This document shows positions 27,492 through 35,197 of a stretch of 37,902 bases of DNA, piece after piece. The notes beneath the pieces were generated by a model. That model was not told the origin of the DNA. It did no database searches and saw nothing but the letters and a program-made list of their open reading frames with translations. A program made the position numbers and the translations under genes. Each line of letters opens with the position of its first letter. The first letter of the stretch is position 1. Source of the stretch: a virus; IMG/VR virus record IMGVR_UViG_3300045116_000569, positions 1 through 37,902 of that record. One strand, 5' to 3'.

Positions 27492-27962
27492 TCACTCGTC
27501 CTTGAGCTCAGGCAGGCGTTCCACGGAGTGGGCTGGAAGCTCCAGTGCTCTCGGTTTGGGGGGCAGTGGTCGCGGGGCGTTCTGAAAGAAAGTGGAGAGC
27601 TCCCCCAGGCCAGCGCTGATCATTGCGTAGAACGTGTCCCAGAGCATACCCCACCAGGGACTTTCTCCGGGTCTGAGTGCCTGGTTTCGGTAAGCTAGCC
27701 GTGCTGGTGCAGCAACACGAACCGGGGGTGTGTTCGGACTCGGCATGACACGATGGCCGTGACTGTTCTGCGTGTACTGCCATACTCGAGAGGCACGGTT
27801 TTGACGTACGACCTCGGCTCGACATTCGTCGGCGGTATCACAAATGACACACTCCGTCTCCGTCTGGTCCCAGTGACCGAAGCAGGTTCGAGTTTCGTAT
27901 CCCACGCTTCCTCCTTCCATACCGGCTGCCGTTTTTGCAGGGAAGACCTTATACCGAGACAC
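27492..27962 (-). CDS. Hypothetical protein at the head of the replication operon
   Basis: This frame encodes up to 156 residues from a GTG at 27962; an ATG at 27920 would give 142 residues. Neither has a good ribosome-binding site. The N-terminal third holds a Cys trio (CVICDTADEC), possibly zinc-binding; the C-terminal half is Pro-rich with a short hydrophobic stretch (WGMLWDTFYAMISAGLG). If the TATAAG at 27948-27953 is the operon promoter, only the 27920 start would be used. No family was recognised. Confidence 0.55.
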   Translation of the reverse strand: MSRYKVFPAKTAAGMEGGSVGYETRTCFGHWDQTETECVICDTADECRAEVVRQNRASRVWQYTQNSHGHRVMPSPNTPPVRVAAPARLAYRNQALRPGESPWWGMLWDTFYAMISAGLGELSTFFQNAPRPLPPKPRALELPAHSVERLPELKDE

Positions 27963-27976
27963 CGTGTTCTCTTTGC
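27948..27976 (-). promoter_or_regulatory. Candidate - strand promoter (GCAAAG-17-TATAAG)
   Basis: On the - strand TATAAG (27953-27948) lies 17 nt after GCAAAG (27976-27971). The same pair of elements precedes the two other - strand transcription units in the window. It would drive the whole replication operon. It overlaps the first codons of the GTG-initiated frame, which favours the ATG at 27920. Inferred from the shared pattern only. Confidence 0.4.
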
Positions 27977-29303: not shown

Positions 29304-32300
29304 ATGAGCAGCTTGAGCACATCCTTTGGCGGCAAGAGGCCAATCCGGCCGCAGTATGGCGTGGAGAAGGGCGGCTGGGTTGGCGAGCTTGCTGACCTCC
29401 GCAACGACATCGATGAAGCGTTCCAGACGCTGGAAACGATGTCAGCGGCCAGCTTTCCCACGATCCACATGCTGGATGCGGAACAGCCCTTGGACATCAG
29501 TGGTGCCGATCTCGTCATTCGAGGTGGCAAGCTGTTGAATGGCGGTGTCGTCGCGTCGCTGAACAAGAACTCGACGCACGGCCTCACTTTCTACGCCTGC
29601 ACACCGGGCACGGCGGGCAACAGCCTCACGGTGCGGCTCATTGCCGGAGCCGGAACCATCGTTGCCTACGCCGGAGGCGCGCTGCAGGTCACGTTCAATA
29701 ACGGTGTCGATAATGACAACGCCATCGCCACTGCGATCAACGCGGCGAGCTCCGCTGCTCGTGGCTATGTTCGCTGTGTCAGCAGCGGCACCAAGAACGC
29801 GGCTGCGATTCAGGCTGCCGGTGGCTTTCTCGCCACGGCGATGACAGGCGGTCTGGGAACAGACTGGAGCTGCCTCGTCTCCGGTGCTGCCGCATTGCCA
29901 GTACAAGCCACGGGAGCAGCCCCGACTGCACCCGTTGCTGATGCTGTCTGCGCTGTTCGCATTCCCGATCTCACCGCGTTGAGTCCGGCACGCACCTCGG
30001 CGGATGAGAACACGGTCTTCGTCGTGGCCAACGGCGTCAGATCGAACCCGGCCTTCCTCCGCAGCACAACGCGAAGTCTTTCCACGCTGATCCATGTCGA
30101 TGTGGGCTACGGCGGCAGCGATGCCGATGGTACTCCGGAGAAGCCCTATGCCACGATTCAGGAAGGGATCGATGCGGCTTCGGCTGGTGACCTCGTCTTC
30201 GTCGGACCTGGTGCATACGCCGAGAGCCTGACACTGAAGCACGGCGTGAACCTCAAGTCGATCCTGCGTGGCACCGTCACCGTGACCGGGAGTGTCACCT
30301 CTACCAACGTCAGCTGCACCATCCAGGGCGTCAACTTCATCGACGATACGCTCGGCGGCGATACCTTCGCCGCTATCGGCGTGGCTGTGCGTACGATTCG
30401 GCTGATCGACTGCAACATCATTGCTACAGGTACAGGGGGTCTCAGTCTTTCCTATGGCAACGCGAACGGCATTCTGGAGCTCATCGAGACCGATGTCCTG
30501 ACCCGAACCGGAAACGCCAACGAAGCGGCTCAGATCAGATCGGGGACGTTCCGGGGGTATCGCAGCGGCATCACTCACGAAGATACCACTTCCGAGGCGA
30601 TCGTTTTCGAGGGCCAGGCCGCAACCACAGCCCTGCTCCGCCGTTGTGACATTCGGGGTCAGGTCGGACACGAGGCTGCGCTGGTCGTCCCGACCCTGAC
30701 GATCGAGCACTGTTCGGTCGATGTGGGCGCAGTTGCCGCAGTGCTCGTGGCGGCTGGCTGCACCCTGAACATTTTCGACTGCCAGGTGACATCGGCCGAG
30801 GCCACGAATCTCTGCTTCGACGGTGCGGGCACCGTGCAGTATGGCGATCTCACCTTCCGCGGTACGGCCTACGGCTTTGCCGGCACACTCACTGCAATCG
30901 GTCTGGAGGAGAGCGCAACCCTACCGGAAAACGGTATCTATTACGTAGATATCGAAAACGTTTCCGGCATCGAGACCGGCTCGAGGCGGCATCCGCTCGT
31001 ATCTCTGGCCGATGCCAATGCGGTCGCCGTGGCGAACGATGTGATCTACGTCCGCGCCGGGACCTACTCCGAGCACCTCGTTGCGGTGGATGGTGTCACC
31101 TATGTGGCCGAGGGCTGGGGTCGTGGCTACAGCGTTCTCATCGACGGCGCCGTGGCCGGGACCCTGACCTGCGACGATGTCAACGCCAACTTCGAGGGCT
31201 TCCTGTTCCAGGACGACGGCGTCACTGGCAACGATGCTGCTCTGGTCACGCAGACTGCTGCTGCAGCCTGTACGGTCCAGTTCCAAGGATGTCGTTTCAC
31301 CGGTACTGCTGCCGGCGCGTCCGCTCTTCATGTGGACAGCACCAATGTCGTCGTGGTCCTCAACGACTGCGTTCTGAGTGAGAACGCAGGCAACGTCAGC
31401 GAGGCATGCCGCATCGAAACGGGTACGGTCAACGGCTACGACTGTGTGATCCAGCACGGGACCTTGACCCGGGAAAGCCTCGTGGCCGAGGGTGCTGCGG
31501 CAACGACAACGAACTGGTTCAACACCTACTTCACAGGCCGGGTCGTTTCTGAGGCGGCCGTGGTCAATCCCACCATGCGCCTCATCGATTGCGAGATCGA
31601 TGTCGGGGCCGTTTCGGGCCTGGCCATCGCAGCGGGCAACACGGTTCGCCTCCTCGACGTCAAGATCGACTCGACCCAGGCCGATGGCTACGCCATTTCC
31701 GGTCTGGGCAGGGTGGAGCTCACTGGCGGCTGCGTCTTCAGCGACACAGCTCAGGACTTCGACCCGAACCTCACCGTGGTCGAGCTGGCCACGGCGCGAA
31801 TCGCTACCAGGACCTTTTCCGATCCGGGTTCGGTCTGCGTGTTCCAGATTGTTGCCACGGGCCTACCTGCTGGTGGGCAGCTCCTAACTATCGGTGCCGA
31901 CACCTACGAGGCCAACGGCGCCGGTGGCAACATCAACTTCGCCATCGGTGGCACGGCCGAAGCCACCATGGATAACCTTCTGGCTGCGGCCGTGGCCAAT
32001 GGAACCGAGAACTTCTTCTGGGACAAGCCGGGCGGTCTCGGAACCAGCATTCTCCGCCTGCGTTCGGCTGATGGTCCTCAGGGGAACATCATCGCCGCCG
32101 ATCCCAACGTGGCCGTCACCGAGAACCTGAACAACACCGTCTTCGACTGTGGCAACGTCAACGTCAACACCTTGGCCGGTCGGGCTGCCGGTGTCAGGCA
32201 GGAAGCGTCGGCTGTTCTGACGCTCAACGCGGGCCATATCGCAGCAACCACGGCTCGCATCAGCTTCCCCTTCGCTGTGGCCCGATTCGAGGTCAGCTGT

Positions 32301-32441
32301 CGTACCGCGCTCGGTGCTGACATCAGTGCGCACACCGACACCTTCCTGATCAACAACGGCGACGTGCTGGTCACGTTGGCTGGCGGTGTCGGCGACCTTG
32401 TCGCCACCGACGTTGTCTGCGTCAAGGCGTACTCGGCCTAG
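29304..32441 (+). CDS. Large beta-helix fibre/surface protein with internal duplication
   Basis: This gene encodes 1045 residues with GGAGAG before the ATG. After an N-terminal ~90 residues, a Gly/Ala/Asn-rich beta domain (TPGTAGNSLTVRLIAGAG, AIATAINAAS) resembles domains common in phage tail proteins. From about residue 262 to 830 there are two tandem pectin-lyase-like beta-helix units. The C-terminal ~200 residues contain another Gly/Asn-rich beta domain (LTIGADTYEANG) and a final beta segment. Such architecture suits a receptor-binding fibre or capsid/tail decoration. No catalytic residues can be assigned. It ends 48 nt before a converging gene. Confidence 0.75.
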   Translation: MSSLSTSFGGKRPIRPQYGVEKGGWVGELADLRNDIDEAFQTLETMSAASFPTIHMLDAEQPLDISGADLVIRGGKLLNGGVVASLNKNSTHGLTFYACTPGTAGNSLTVRLIAGAGTIVAYAGGALQVTFNNGVDNDNAIATAINAASSAARGYVRCVSSGTKNAAAIQAAGGFLATAMTGGLGTDWSCLVSGAAALPVQATGAAPTAPVADAVCAVRIPDLTALSPARTSADENTVFVVANGVRSNPAFLRSTTRSLSTLIHVDVGYGGSDADGTPEKPYATIQEGIDAASAGDLVFVGPGAYAESLTLKHGVNLKSILRGTVTVTGSVTSTNVSCTIQGVNFIDDTLGGDTFAAIGVAVRTIRLIDCNIIATGTGGLSLSYGNANGILELIETDVLTRTGNANEAAQIRSGTFRGYRSGITHEDTTSEAIVFEGQAATTALLRRCDIRGQVGHEAALVVPTLTIEHCSVDVGAVAAVLVAAGCTLNIFDCQVTSAEATNLCFDGAGTVQYGDLTFRGTAYGFAGTLTAIGLEESATLPENGIYYVDIENVSGIETGSRRHPLVSLADANAVAVANDVIYVRAGTYSEHLVAVDGVTYVAEGWGRGYSVLIDGAVAGTLTCDDVNANFEGFLFQDDGVTGNDAALVTQTAAAACTVQFQGCRFTGTAAGASALHVDSTNVVVVLNDCVLSENAGNVSEACRIETGTVNGYDCVIQHGTLTRESLVAEGAAATTTNWFNTYFTGRVVSEAAVVNPTMRLIDCEIDVGAVSGLAIAAGNTVRLLDVKIDSTQADGYAISGLGRVELTGGCVFSDTAQDFDPNLTVVELATARIATRTFSDPGSVCVFQIVATGLPAGGQLLTIGADTYEANGAGGNINFAIGGTAEATMDNLLAAAVANGTENFFWDKPGGLGTSILRLRSADGPQGNIIAADPNVAVTENLNNTVFDCGNVNVNTLAGRAAGVRQEASAVLTLNAGHIAATTARISFPFAVARFEVSCRTALGADISAHTDTFLINNGDVLVTLAGGVGDLVATDVVCVKAYSA
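30079..31770 (+). repeat. Tandem internal duplication (two ~283-residue beta-helix units)
   Basis: Copy 1 starts near 30088 (HVDVGYGGSDADGTPEKPYA) and copy 2 near 30934 (YYVDIENVSGIETGSRRHPL). Later matching points include EAAQIRSGTFRGY versus EACRIETGTVNGY, VPTLTIEHCSVDVGAVAAVL versus NPTMRLIDCEIDVGAVSGLA, and NIFDCQVTSAEA versus RLLDVKIDSTQA. The offset is 283-294 codons. Divergence is substantial, so this is an old protein-level duplication and not a DNA-level repeat. Confidence 0.75.
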
Positions 32442-32463: not shown

Positions 32464-32510
32464 GCTAAGAAGACGGCCCGGACCTGGGCCTAGAGATGGG
32501 CGGGTCGTCT
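32464..32510 (-). terminator. Hairpin terminator after the sigma-like gene
   Basis: Arms at 32471-32480 and 32501-32510 form a 10-bp stem with one G-U pair. On the - strand it is followed by TCTTAGCCCTG. One arm lies inside the last codons of the - strand gene. It sits in the convergent gap with the fibre gene and may also stop + strand transcripts. The tail matches the TTAGC(T/C)C seen at two other - strand hairpins. Confidence 0.5.
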
Positions 32511-33101
32511 GGGCACCCATCGGCACCCTGGAGGCCGAACCTCCACGGGGGACGGGTAGTCCCAGTTCCGGGTCGTTAGGGCGGCTAGCACCGCCCCGAC
32601 CCGCGCCGCGTCCTCGGGTTCCAGGACCCGGTGCGCGGCCAGGACACACCGTTCTCGGAGCCGGTGTGTCTTCTGGTGAGCAACGGCGCTGCGCCGGCCC
32701 ACCTCGTCGGACTGCGCGAGCCTGAGGAGCTCGCACAGTGTGGAGGAGAGCGTCCGCCAGCGCGGCCGGACCTTCTCCTCCGCCGCCCCGACGGCAGCGG
32801 CGAGGATCACGAGGAGCTCACCGTCGAGCTCCTCGCCATGCTCTCGGGCGGGTGCCCGCAACCCGAGAGCCAGGGCTGCGGGTGCCCGAGGACTTCGAGA
32901 TTGTTGCTTCCTCTTCTCGTCGGCGAGGCAGTGCCGCGCCGAGATTCGAAGGTAATCCCTCAGGTTCTCGGGGACGGTTCCCGATCGGAGCAGCCGACAG
33001 AACGCCTCCTGGAAGGCGTCCTCGGCGTCTTCGTCTGTGGCCCCGCTCCGGACGAGGCCACGGACGAGTTGCGCCCGAAGGCGCTGTAGATCTCTCATCA
33101 T
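32490..33101 (-). CDS. ECF-like sigma factor
   Basis: This gene encodes 203 residues from an ATG at 33101 (a second ATG follows at once). Residues 4-67 match sigma region 2: a helix, then DEDAEDAFQEAFCRLLRSG, then NLRDYLRISARHCLADEKRK, which is the core-binding and -10 recognition layout. After a Pro/Ala linker, residues 96-160 are helical and end LAQSDEVGRRSAVAHQKTHR and LRERC, resembling the region 4 helix-turn-helix. It could redirect host RNA polymerase to phage genes. There is no ribosome-binding site; TATAAG ends 5 nt before the ATG, so a leaderless mRNA is possible. It lies next to structural genes, suggesting late expression control. Confidence 0.7.
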   Translation of the reverse strand: MMRDLQRLRAQLVRGLVRSGATDEDAEDAFQEAFCRLLRSGTVPENLRDYLRISARHCLADEKRKQQSRSPRAPAALALGLRAPAREHGEELDGELLVILAAAVGAAEEKVRPRWRTLSSTLCELLRLAQSDEVGRRSAVAHQKTHRLRERCVLAAHRVLEPEDAARVGAVLAALTTRNWDYPSPVEVRPPGCRWVPRRPAHL

Positions 33102-33106
33102 GTTTT

Positions 33107-33136
33107 CTTATAACCAAAGCAGATCATCAGCTTTCG
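33107..33136 (-). promoter_or_regulatory. Candidate - strand promoter of the sigma-like gene
   Basis: TATAAG (33112-33107) follows CGAAAG (33136-33131) with an 18-nt spacer on the - strand. The next bases are AAAAC then the ATG, so transcription would begin at or very near the start codon. Same paired elements as at 27948 and 34365. Confidence 0.4.
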
Positions 33137-33212: not shown

Positions 33213-34301
33213 TCACTTCGACGGCGGCTCCAGCGAGAGCTCCCTGGACCAGCTTTGCTCCGTCGGGACGTGGACCGCGTCGATACGGCATCCAAATCTG
33301 TGTCGGATGTCTTGCCACCAGTACGATGGGCAACCGGCACAGTGGACCTCGTGGTCGCGCAGGACGCAACTCACGCTCCACTCAGGGGGCGGCGTGGGCA
33401 GACGTGCCTTCAACGCCTTGAAGCGTGCCCACGTTTCGGCTGGAACCTCACTTGCATCATAGGCGCCGAAGGTTGGGTCGTTGCCACGACACTCGTGGTG
33501 GTGTTCCCCGATGTCCTCGTTTCGCAGGAACTGGTATGGTGCCTCGGCCGGGTCCAGGAGCTGTCGGAAGATCCAGTCTTCGACTGCCGCCATCTTCTCT
33601 TTCGAAGGAAGAACTCCGGCTTCGAACCGCTCCAGCTGTTCTGTGGACAGAACAGTCCGGACGAAAGCAGGGAACGCGGCGAGAGCCGCCTGCTTTGCTT
33701 CCGCCTTGGCCCGATCCTGATGCTTCTTGAGCAGGGTCGCTCGTGCCGTCCGTCGCCTTTCCTCGTTGATCTCGACGATCAGCTCATCCAGCCGGGCTAG
33801 ATCTGCGGGGTCGAGGTACTTACCATACTCCAGAAGCTTGCCTCCGGAGCTGACGGGCTGAAAAACGTGGATATGGACCTCTTCGAGGTGACCTCCCTCC
33901 TCCAGACGTAGCGTCTCTACTGCTTTTTCGAGCTCATGCTGTGGGAGTTGACCCTGCTGAATGCTGATGGCACGGGATCTCGCCTGGGCCATCAGATCCT
34001 GGTCGGCCTTCTCCCGCGCTTTCCTGGCCGCTGCTTCGTGCTCGGTCTTTTCCTTCTCCGTTCGCTGAATCTCCTCGTCGAGGAAGGCCACCAGGGCCTC
34101 TCCGGTGTGTGCCGCTGGGCCGTGGAGAACCGGGGTTGCGCCTCTGGTCTCCTTGCTGACTTTGACCAGACGGAGGAGCGTGCTCAGGCGTGCCTCCGTC
34201 CAGCGCTCAGTATCTTCCAGATGGAGCGGCACCGGGCGGGTGCCAGGCTCGCTACGCATGGCTACGGCTTTCTCCCAGGACACATGGATAAAGATTTCCA
34301 T
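33213..34301 (-). CDS. Coiled-coil protein with C-terminal Cys/His cluster
   Basis: This gene encodes 362 residues. I chose the ATG at 34301 because AGGAGG lies 7 nt upstream; the frame is open to a GTG at 34340. Residues about 70-125 are highly charged (EIQRTEKEKTEHEAAARKAR), and a second helical stretch occurs near 180-230. The C-terminal 90 residues contain HHHEC, then CVLRDHEVHCAGC and a final Cys, suggesting a zinc site. No family was recognised. It is transcribed away from the portal-side genes from a shared 116-nt gap. The role is unknown; scaffold or regulatory protein are both possible. Confidence 0.65.
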   Translation of the reverse strand: MEIFIHVSWEKAVAMRSEPGTRPVPLHLEDTERWTEARLSTLLRLVKVSKETRGATPVLHGPAAHTGEALVAFLDEEIQRTEKEKTEHEAAARKAREKADQDLMAQARSRAISIQQGQLPQHELEKAVETLRLEEGGHLEEVHIHVFQPVSSGGKLLEYGKYLDPADLARLDELIVEINEERRRTARATLLKKHQDRAKAEAKQAALAAFPAFVRTVLSTEQLERFEAGVLPSKEKMAAVEDWIFRQLLDPAEAPYQFLRNEDIGEHHHECRGNDPTFGAYDASEVPAETWARFKALKARLPTPPPEWSVSCVLRDHEVHCAGCPSYWWQDIRHRFGCRIDAVHVPTEQSWSRELSLEPPSK

Positions 34302-34364
34302 CTCTTCCTCCTGTCTTCCCTCAAGGAAGACGTTCTGCACGAGCTCCAGTGCCCGCGCGCTTTT

Positions 34365-34393
34365 CTTATATCAGGACAGATGGCTCTCTTGAC
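34365..34393 (-). promoter_or_regulatory. Candidate - strand promoter (GTCAAG-17-TATAAG)
   Basis: TATAAG (34370-34365) with AAAAG after it, and GTCAAG (34393-34388) 17 nt upstream on the - strand. The 10-base TATAAGAAAA is identical at the sigma-like gene promoter. Transcription would start about 57 nt before the ATG at 34301. The remaining gap to 34418 holds TATACA at 34407-34412, 5 nt before the + strand ATG, without a well-spaced -35. Confidence 0.45.
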
Positions 34394-34417: not shown

Positions 34418-35197
34418 ATGAGCGTCACGGTCCCGGTGGAGGAAGCTGCCACGAAGCCTTTCTCCCCGAACAACTTCCTCGTGCATCACGACACCCATCC
34501 CCTGACCCTGACCTTGCTCTGTCTGGATCGGATGGGGGTGGACTGGTTGGAGTGGGAACCGGATGTGCTCAGGGCCGAGCTCCTTCGCGTCTTTCGTCAG
34601 CCCTCGATCCACAGCGCGAATTGGGAGATGCTCCAGGCGGCGCGAACCTGTCTCCTGGCCACATCGCCGTGGAAGACCTGGGAGGTCTTCGCACTGGTCT
34701 GCCAGGCGTTCAACAACAACATCCCGGACTTCCAGAGCTTGCAACGCTCCACGCCAGCTCAGGTCACGGTCTGCGTGGATATGATGCAGCGGTTGGGAAG
34801 TCACACCTTCGCCGACCCGGTCGAGCGGTTCATCGCCGCATGTTACTTGGACGAGAGCATCGACTACCTGCATCCCATCGTAGGCTTCGCCCAGGAATGG
34901 GTGACGCGGCCCATGTATCGATGTCGTCGTTGTGGCCGCGTGGACCATGATGATGCAAACGGCGTCTGTGATAGTTGTGGTGCTCCAGATACCGAGCTGG
35001 AGCGTACCCGTACACGAGACCCCGACCCGATCAAGCGGCGCTACGATGAGATTCGGGCCATGGGACGGGACCGGCCCGTGCTTCAAGAGACCATGGAAGA
35101 TATACAGACGGCCAAGCTCCTTCTCATCGACGCCTACGTGGACTATCGACGTCTCCAGCTGAAGACACAGATGTCTTTGATCCAGGAGGCCCCGTGA
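34418..35197 (+). CDS. Zinc-ribbon protein upstream of the portal region
   Basis: This gene encodes 259 residues. I chose the ATG at 34418 as the first Met of coding-like sequence; it has no ribosome-binding site, but TATACA ends 5 nt before it. Residues 25-150 are helical and Trp/Leu-rich (DWLEWEPDVLRAELLRVF, WEVFALVCQAFNNNIPDF). A four-Cys zinc ribbon follows: YRCRRCGRVD and CDSCGAPD. The C-terminal helix is charged. The Trp-rich first half resembles, in my recollection, uncharacterised phage head-region proteins. It overlaps the next gene by GTGA. Function is unknown; a head assembly or packaging accessory role is inferred. Confidence 0.65.
   Translation: MSVTVPVEEAATKPFSPNNFLVHHDTHPLTLTLLCLDRMGVDWLEWEPDVLRAELLRVFRQPSIHSANWEMLQAARTCLLATSPWKTWEVFALVCQAFNNNIPDFQSLQRSTPAQVTVCVDMMQRLGSHTFADPVERFIAACYLDESIDYLHPIVGFAQEWVTRPMYRCRRCGRVDHDDANGVCDSCGAPDTELERTRTRDPDPIKRRYDEIRAMGRDRPVLQETMEDIQTAKLLLIDAYVDYRRLQLKTQMSLIQEAP

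Follow-up and report, generated by a model that had tools for sequence, protein, structure and literature searches.

The DNA analyzed here (the window) is the 37,902-base IMG/VR phage record IMGVR_UViG_3300045116_000569, which has a G+C content of 60.6% and comes from a large uncultured bacterial virus. Its minus strand carries genes for a family A DNA polymerase, a DnaB-like helicase, a DnaG-like primase, and RecA-like, ResIII, and UDG proteins; fiber-type genes lie on the plus strand. Given that two relatives, IMGVR_UViG_3300023276_001086 (168 kb; G001) and IMGVR_UViG_3300014613_000001 (178 kb; G002), are both syntenic with most of the window, it probably represents part of a larger genome. 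The locus of interest is a pair of minus-strand genes, encoding a protein with a sigma factor region 2 (P0001) and a coiled-coil protein (P0002), and comprises the following features, listed together with the best copy in the window of a promoter motif described below:

27948-27976, minus strand: best window copy of GCAAA-N15/16-GGTATAAGG, preceding the conserved helicase/replication operon on this strand
29304-32441, plus strand: fiber-type gene with beta-helix matches, left flank of the insert
32490-33101, minus strand: P0001, sigma-region-2 protein of 203 aa, intact open reading frame with its ATG at 33101
32493-32885, minus strand: C-terminal half of P0001 (residues 73-203), region 4 not detectable
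32898-33095, minus strand: sigma region 2 of P0001 (residues 3-68), from PF04542, a six-frame search, our own ECF profile, and alignment
33103-33112, minus strand: TATAAGAAAA, candidate promoter by consensus match, abutting the P0001 ATG
33213-34301, minus strand: P0002, coiled-coil protein of 362 aa with its ATG at 34301, upstream partner gene in the insert
34361-34370, minus strand: TATAAGAAAA before P0002, candidate insert promoter by consensus match
34418-35197, plus strand: conserved gene, right flank of the insert, found directly after the fiber-type genes in the relatives

An earlier reading of the sequence alone (the sequence-only reading) had placed a sigma factor gene at 32490-33101, which we find to be an intact 203-aa open reading frame on the minus strand, and had described it as standing alone between a fiber gene and a coiled-coil gene on the opposite strand. 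The fiber gene is indeed on the opposite strand, but the coiled-coil gene lies on the same strand directly upstream, so that P0001 is not alone but the second gene of a pair separated by 111 bases, with an AGGAGG at 34307-34312 preceding the P0002 ATG. This pair is an accessory insert lying between the fiber gene and the conserved 34418 gene. In G001 and G002, the stretch that runs from the 27753/29304 genes to the 34418 gene lacks both genes (the N-terminal part of the fiber-type gene is kept in G001). The stretches examined of ~11 further viral contigs, as counted after merging near-identical ones, likewise showed neither a relative of P0001 or P0002 nor any sigma region. These contigs were retrieved using the 34418 gene and the 26083 helicase, and two are short and cover only part of the insert slot. 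The P0001 gene has a G+C content of 69.3%, the highest among the main genes of the window (57-63% in the others).

P0002 showed no family match in Pfam, no match to an anti-sigma domain, and no relatives in our searches, and its single-sequence AlphaFold model, computed without relatives, reached a pLDDT of 44. Near its C terminus we noted the sequence HEVHCAGC, an Hx3Cx2C pattern that also occurs in 0.26% of shuffles; with this pattern only and no domain match, P0002 was not taken as a zinc anti-sigma factor, the kind of cognate partner encoded next to ECF sigma factors. A defense system was considered as well and rejected, as PADLOC gave no match. The protein of the right-flank gene (34418-35197) bears an invariant, zinc-ribbon-like CxxC...CxxC arrangement and is conserved across the phage group, making it a useful marker gene; a search with it retrieved 17 related contigs.

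Region 2 of P0001 was matched by the Pfam profile PF04542 at residues 3-68 (E=1.1e-5, 25.5 bits, cut-off 24), in agreement with the residues 4-67 assigned by the sequence-only reading, and holds DAEDAFQEAF (2.2-like) and YLRISARHCLADEKRK (2.3/2.4-like). The same residues are covered by NCBIfam TIGR02937, below that model's own cut-off, by several ECF models, and weakly by PHROG 1740, while hhalign against a profile of 15 ECFs gave a probability of 94.5% over residues 9-112. Using an ECF profile built from these 15 and eight Chloroflexota ECFs, P0001 scored 45.3 bits, compared to at most 11.6 bits in ~1000 C-terminal-core shuffles. For each of the eight Chloroflexota ECFs, none of 500 same-residue shuffles reached the pairwise score of region 2, a test that is not independent of the search because the eight were chosen by their similarity to P0001. 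At the level of sequence, these comparisons confirm region 2 of P0001 as a real sigma domain, the feature by which a protein is placed in the Sigma-70 superfamily. A Pfam T2SSF match of P0001 (E=0.005, below cut-off) was judged to be due to chance. Searches for close relatives of P0001 among viral contigs, genome contigs, phages, and plasmids returned none, including no phage homologue, and the genome matches were generic ECFs aligned mainly via region 2.

The helix-turn-helix of region 4 that had been proposed at residues ~120-160 was not recovered. The C-terminal half of P0001 had no match in Pfam, and PF08281 and PF04545 were absent from all six frames of the window, so that a frameshifted region 4 was also rejected; of the Sigma70_r2 and r4 profile searches suggested in the sequence-only reading, the former thus produced a match (PF04542) and the latter none. 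With two ECF region-4 profiles, the C-terminal half scored in the mid-range of shuffled sequences, whereas all 15 real ECFs used as controls, four of them from phage records, scored 29.9-84.6 bits in leave-one-out comparisons; given that every control was detected, the test has power. ECFs are defined by the presence of both the sigma2 and sigma4 domains (PMC8103513), and the description of P0001 as ECF-like consequently holds for region 2 but not for the second defining domain, which was tested for and not found, so that by these tests P0001 falls outside the ECF group (group IV). The single-sequence AlphaFold model of P0001, again computed without relatives, had a pLDDT of 49, too low to be informative on this point, and a fold search with this model was discarded as meaningless.

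P0001 may instead be a complete two-domain ECF in which region 4 (~residues 110-158) has diverged past profile detection, an explanation we regard as unlikely, although several observations fit it. The length of P0001 and its helix-rich C-terminal half are as expected for a full ECF, the TIGR02989 profile spans residues 3-150 (E=0.1), and MAFFT aligns residues 131-150 to the region-4 helix-turn-helix. Pairwise scores of the C-terminal half against three Chloroflexota ECFs (L039, L041, and L046) were reached by 17, 32, and 34 of 500 shuffles, respectively, a borderline similarity that makes a strongly diverged region 4 possible. Against this stand the lack of any Pfam region-4 match and the two region-4 profiles, which rate P0001 like shuffles while detecting all 15 ECFs.

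We also noted a promoter motif common to the phage group, GCAAA-N15-GGTATAAGG. A scan at a score of at least 13/14 found five sites in G001 and three in G002, compared to 0.3 and 0 in block shuffles, counts that are descriptive because G001 and G002 themselves served to define the motif. Conserved operon starts in both relatives are also marked by TATAAG, with an A-rich block ~20 bases upstream. A promoter-like motif of this kind (A-rich block, 17 bases, TATAAG) is conserved ahead of the helicase operon in the window and in several of its relatives, with copies at 27948-27976 in the window and at L005 12574, L010 6049, L066 5614, L070 5704, L071 5022, L076 5770, and L083 9534. The window contains two copies of TATAAGAAAA, one before each insert gene and both on the minus strand. 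The copy before P0002 has a CAAG at 34388-34391, 21 bases upstream of the T, which is the spacing of the group motif; the copy before P0001 deviates from the group motif by two bases in its distance to the A block, and a transcript from this candidate promoter would be leaderless or nearly so. A requirement for P0001 at the GGTATAAGG promoters was rejected, as relatives without P0001 carry them; P0001 is not needed for the GCAAA/GGTATAAGG motif, and its target promoters need not be these conserved promoters.

Two known proteins provide the closest comparisons. The late sigma factor of phage T4, gp55, works with the coactivator gp33 and the clamp gp45. The sigma similarity of gp55 is confined to domain 2 (PMC2988020), and that of P0001 is limited in the same way. 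In contrast to gp55, region 2 of P0001 is ECF-like enough for detection via Pfam, its last residues (VEVRPPGCRWVPRRPAHL) are basic with no hydrophobic clamp-binding motif evident by eye, and neither a gp33 nor a late-promoter system was identified in the 38-kb window. The other, RsoA of B. subtilis, is a stand-alone sigma2 protein, one of the two parts of a split sigma factor (PMC8103513). RsoA pairs with the sigma4 protein SigO of the same operon, whereas the P0001 neighbor, P0002, shows no sigma4, and no region 4 was found to be encoded anywhere within the window. ECFs such as L039, L041, and L046, gp92 of the Streptomyces phage Gilgamesh, and SigE (sigE) of the Microcystis phage MaAM05 can be aligned with P0001 over the full length of region 2, but the two-region ECFs scored here have, unlike P0001, a detectable region 4. 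Sigma2-only proteins are already a known kind.

Given that P0001 has the half that grips the polymerase, while the half that recognizes the -35 element is undetected, it may redirect or obstruct the host RNA polymerase. Our preferred reading, to which we tentatively assign a probability of roughly 0.48, is that P0001 is an acquired accessory phage sigma2 protein that binds RNA polymerase and acts as a minimal promoter-specificity subunit like T4 gp55 or RsoA. The profile comparisons support a sigma-family domain, which would bind the host RNA polymerase, and we infer that region 2.2 would dock on the beta-prime clamp helices of the host core enzyme. The target of the 2.3/2.4-like stretch may be -10 elements, such that P0001 would serve -10-type promoters while making no -35 contacts itself and, as the sequence-only reading had put forward, might turn the host polymerase toward phage promoters. 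Lacking region 4, P0001 would either depend on a partner or block the polymerase, and the sigma4 or coactivator role would be supplied by the host or by a protein encoded beyond the 38-kb fragment. No partner protein was seen in the window, which counts against the sigma2-subunit reading, as do the low confidence of the structure model and the borderline C-terminal similarity to the three Chloroflexota ECFs; with no homologues found other than generic ECFs, conservation also lends no support to a functional protein. At present, P0001 can be regarded as an accessory phage gene of an ordinary type, unusual in its missing half; sigma factors are in themselves not rare in phages, with 86.6% of the phage genomes in one database having none and the others at least one (PMC9429907).

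Retention of region 2 together with a missing region 4 would also suit a decoy, which would sit on the clamp helices with its sigma2 domain, block the host sigma factor, and shut off host transcription while recognizing no promoters. The P0002 gene bears the group promoter motif, placing the pair possibly under phage control, but P0001 has also retained the 2.3/2.4-like residues predicted to contact DNA, and we consider a decoy improbable. We hold similarly little expectation, and slightly less, that P0001 is a recently captured bacterial ECF gene now decaying as functionless passenger DNA: its outlying G+C content, missing region 4, and absence from all relatives examined are compatible with this, whereas its frame is intact through 203 codons and a candidate promoter lies upstream. 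Highly doubtful, in our view, is a split sigma factor within the phage group, comprising a sigma2-only subunit (P0001) and an XRE-HTH/sigma4-only subunit (in G001) that would each reach the polymerase on their own and be separately gained and lost among relatives. Finally, that P0001 is no sigma factor but a helical protein matching by chance is extremely improbable, as its score in the general library is only moderate (25.5 bits) but independent libraries (Pfam, NCBIfam, and PHROG) agree, the ECF profile score of 45 bits far exceeds that of the shuffles (at most 11.6), and the pairwise scores of region 2 exceed every shuffle of region 2 itself.

Upon our inspection of G001, we noted a 442-codon frame on the minus strand (106416-107741; L060, L062) with a sigma70 region 4 (PF04545, 48 bits, above cut-off). 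By eye, this frame starts with an XRE-like helix-turn-helix; region 2 is absent, making it a complementary sigma half.

In G002, the slot that holds the sigma insert in the window is occupied by a CRISPR mini-array (~87378-87716; L010 7378-7716) of six 29-base repeats at 61-base spacing with 32-base spacers. Archaeal viruses are known to carry such mini-arrays (PMC6858448). A search for the protospacer of one of the spacers matched the array itself only. The exact repeat was found in one genome of the collection, the Chloroflexota MAG DUUT01000048.1 (L038), where an array of 18 repeats adjoins a Cas1-like frame (identified as Cas1 by eye). The identity of the two repeats suggests that G002, and perhaps also the phage of the window, infects Chloroflexota. 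If P0001 binds the polymerase, it would represent a minimal sigma2 protein carried by a phage, whose host would be a Chloroflexota bacterium should the CRISPR clue from G002 hold, and a small test case for how much of a sigma factor suffices to redirect or block RNA polymerase. A simple scan for CRISPR-like repeats also found three regularly spaced exact repeats at ~89195 in G001 (L013 ~9195).
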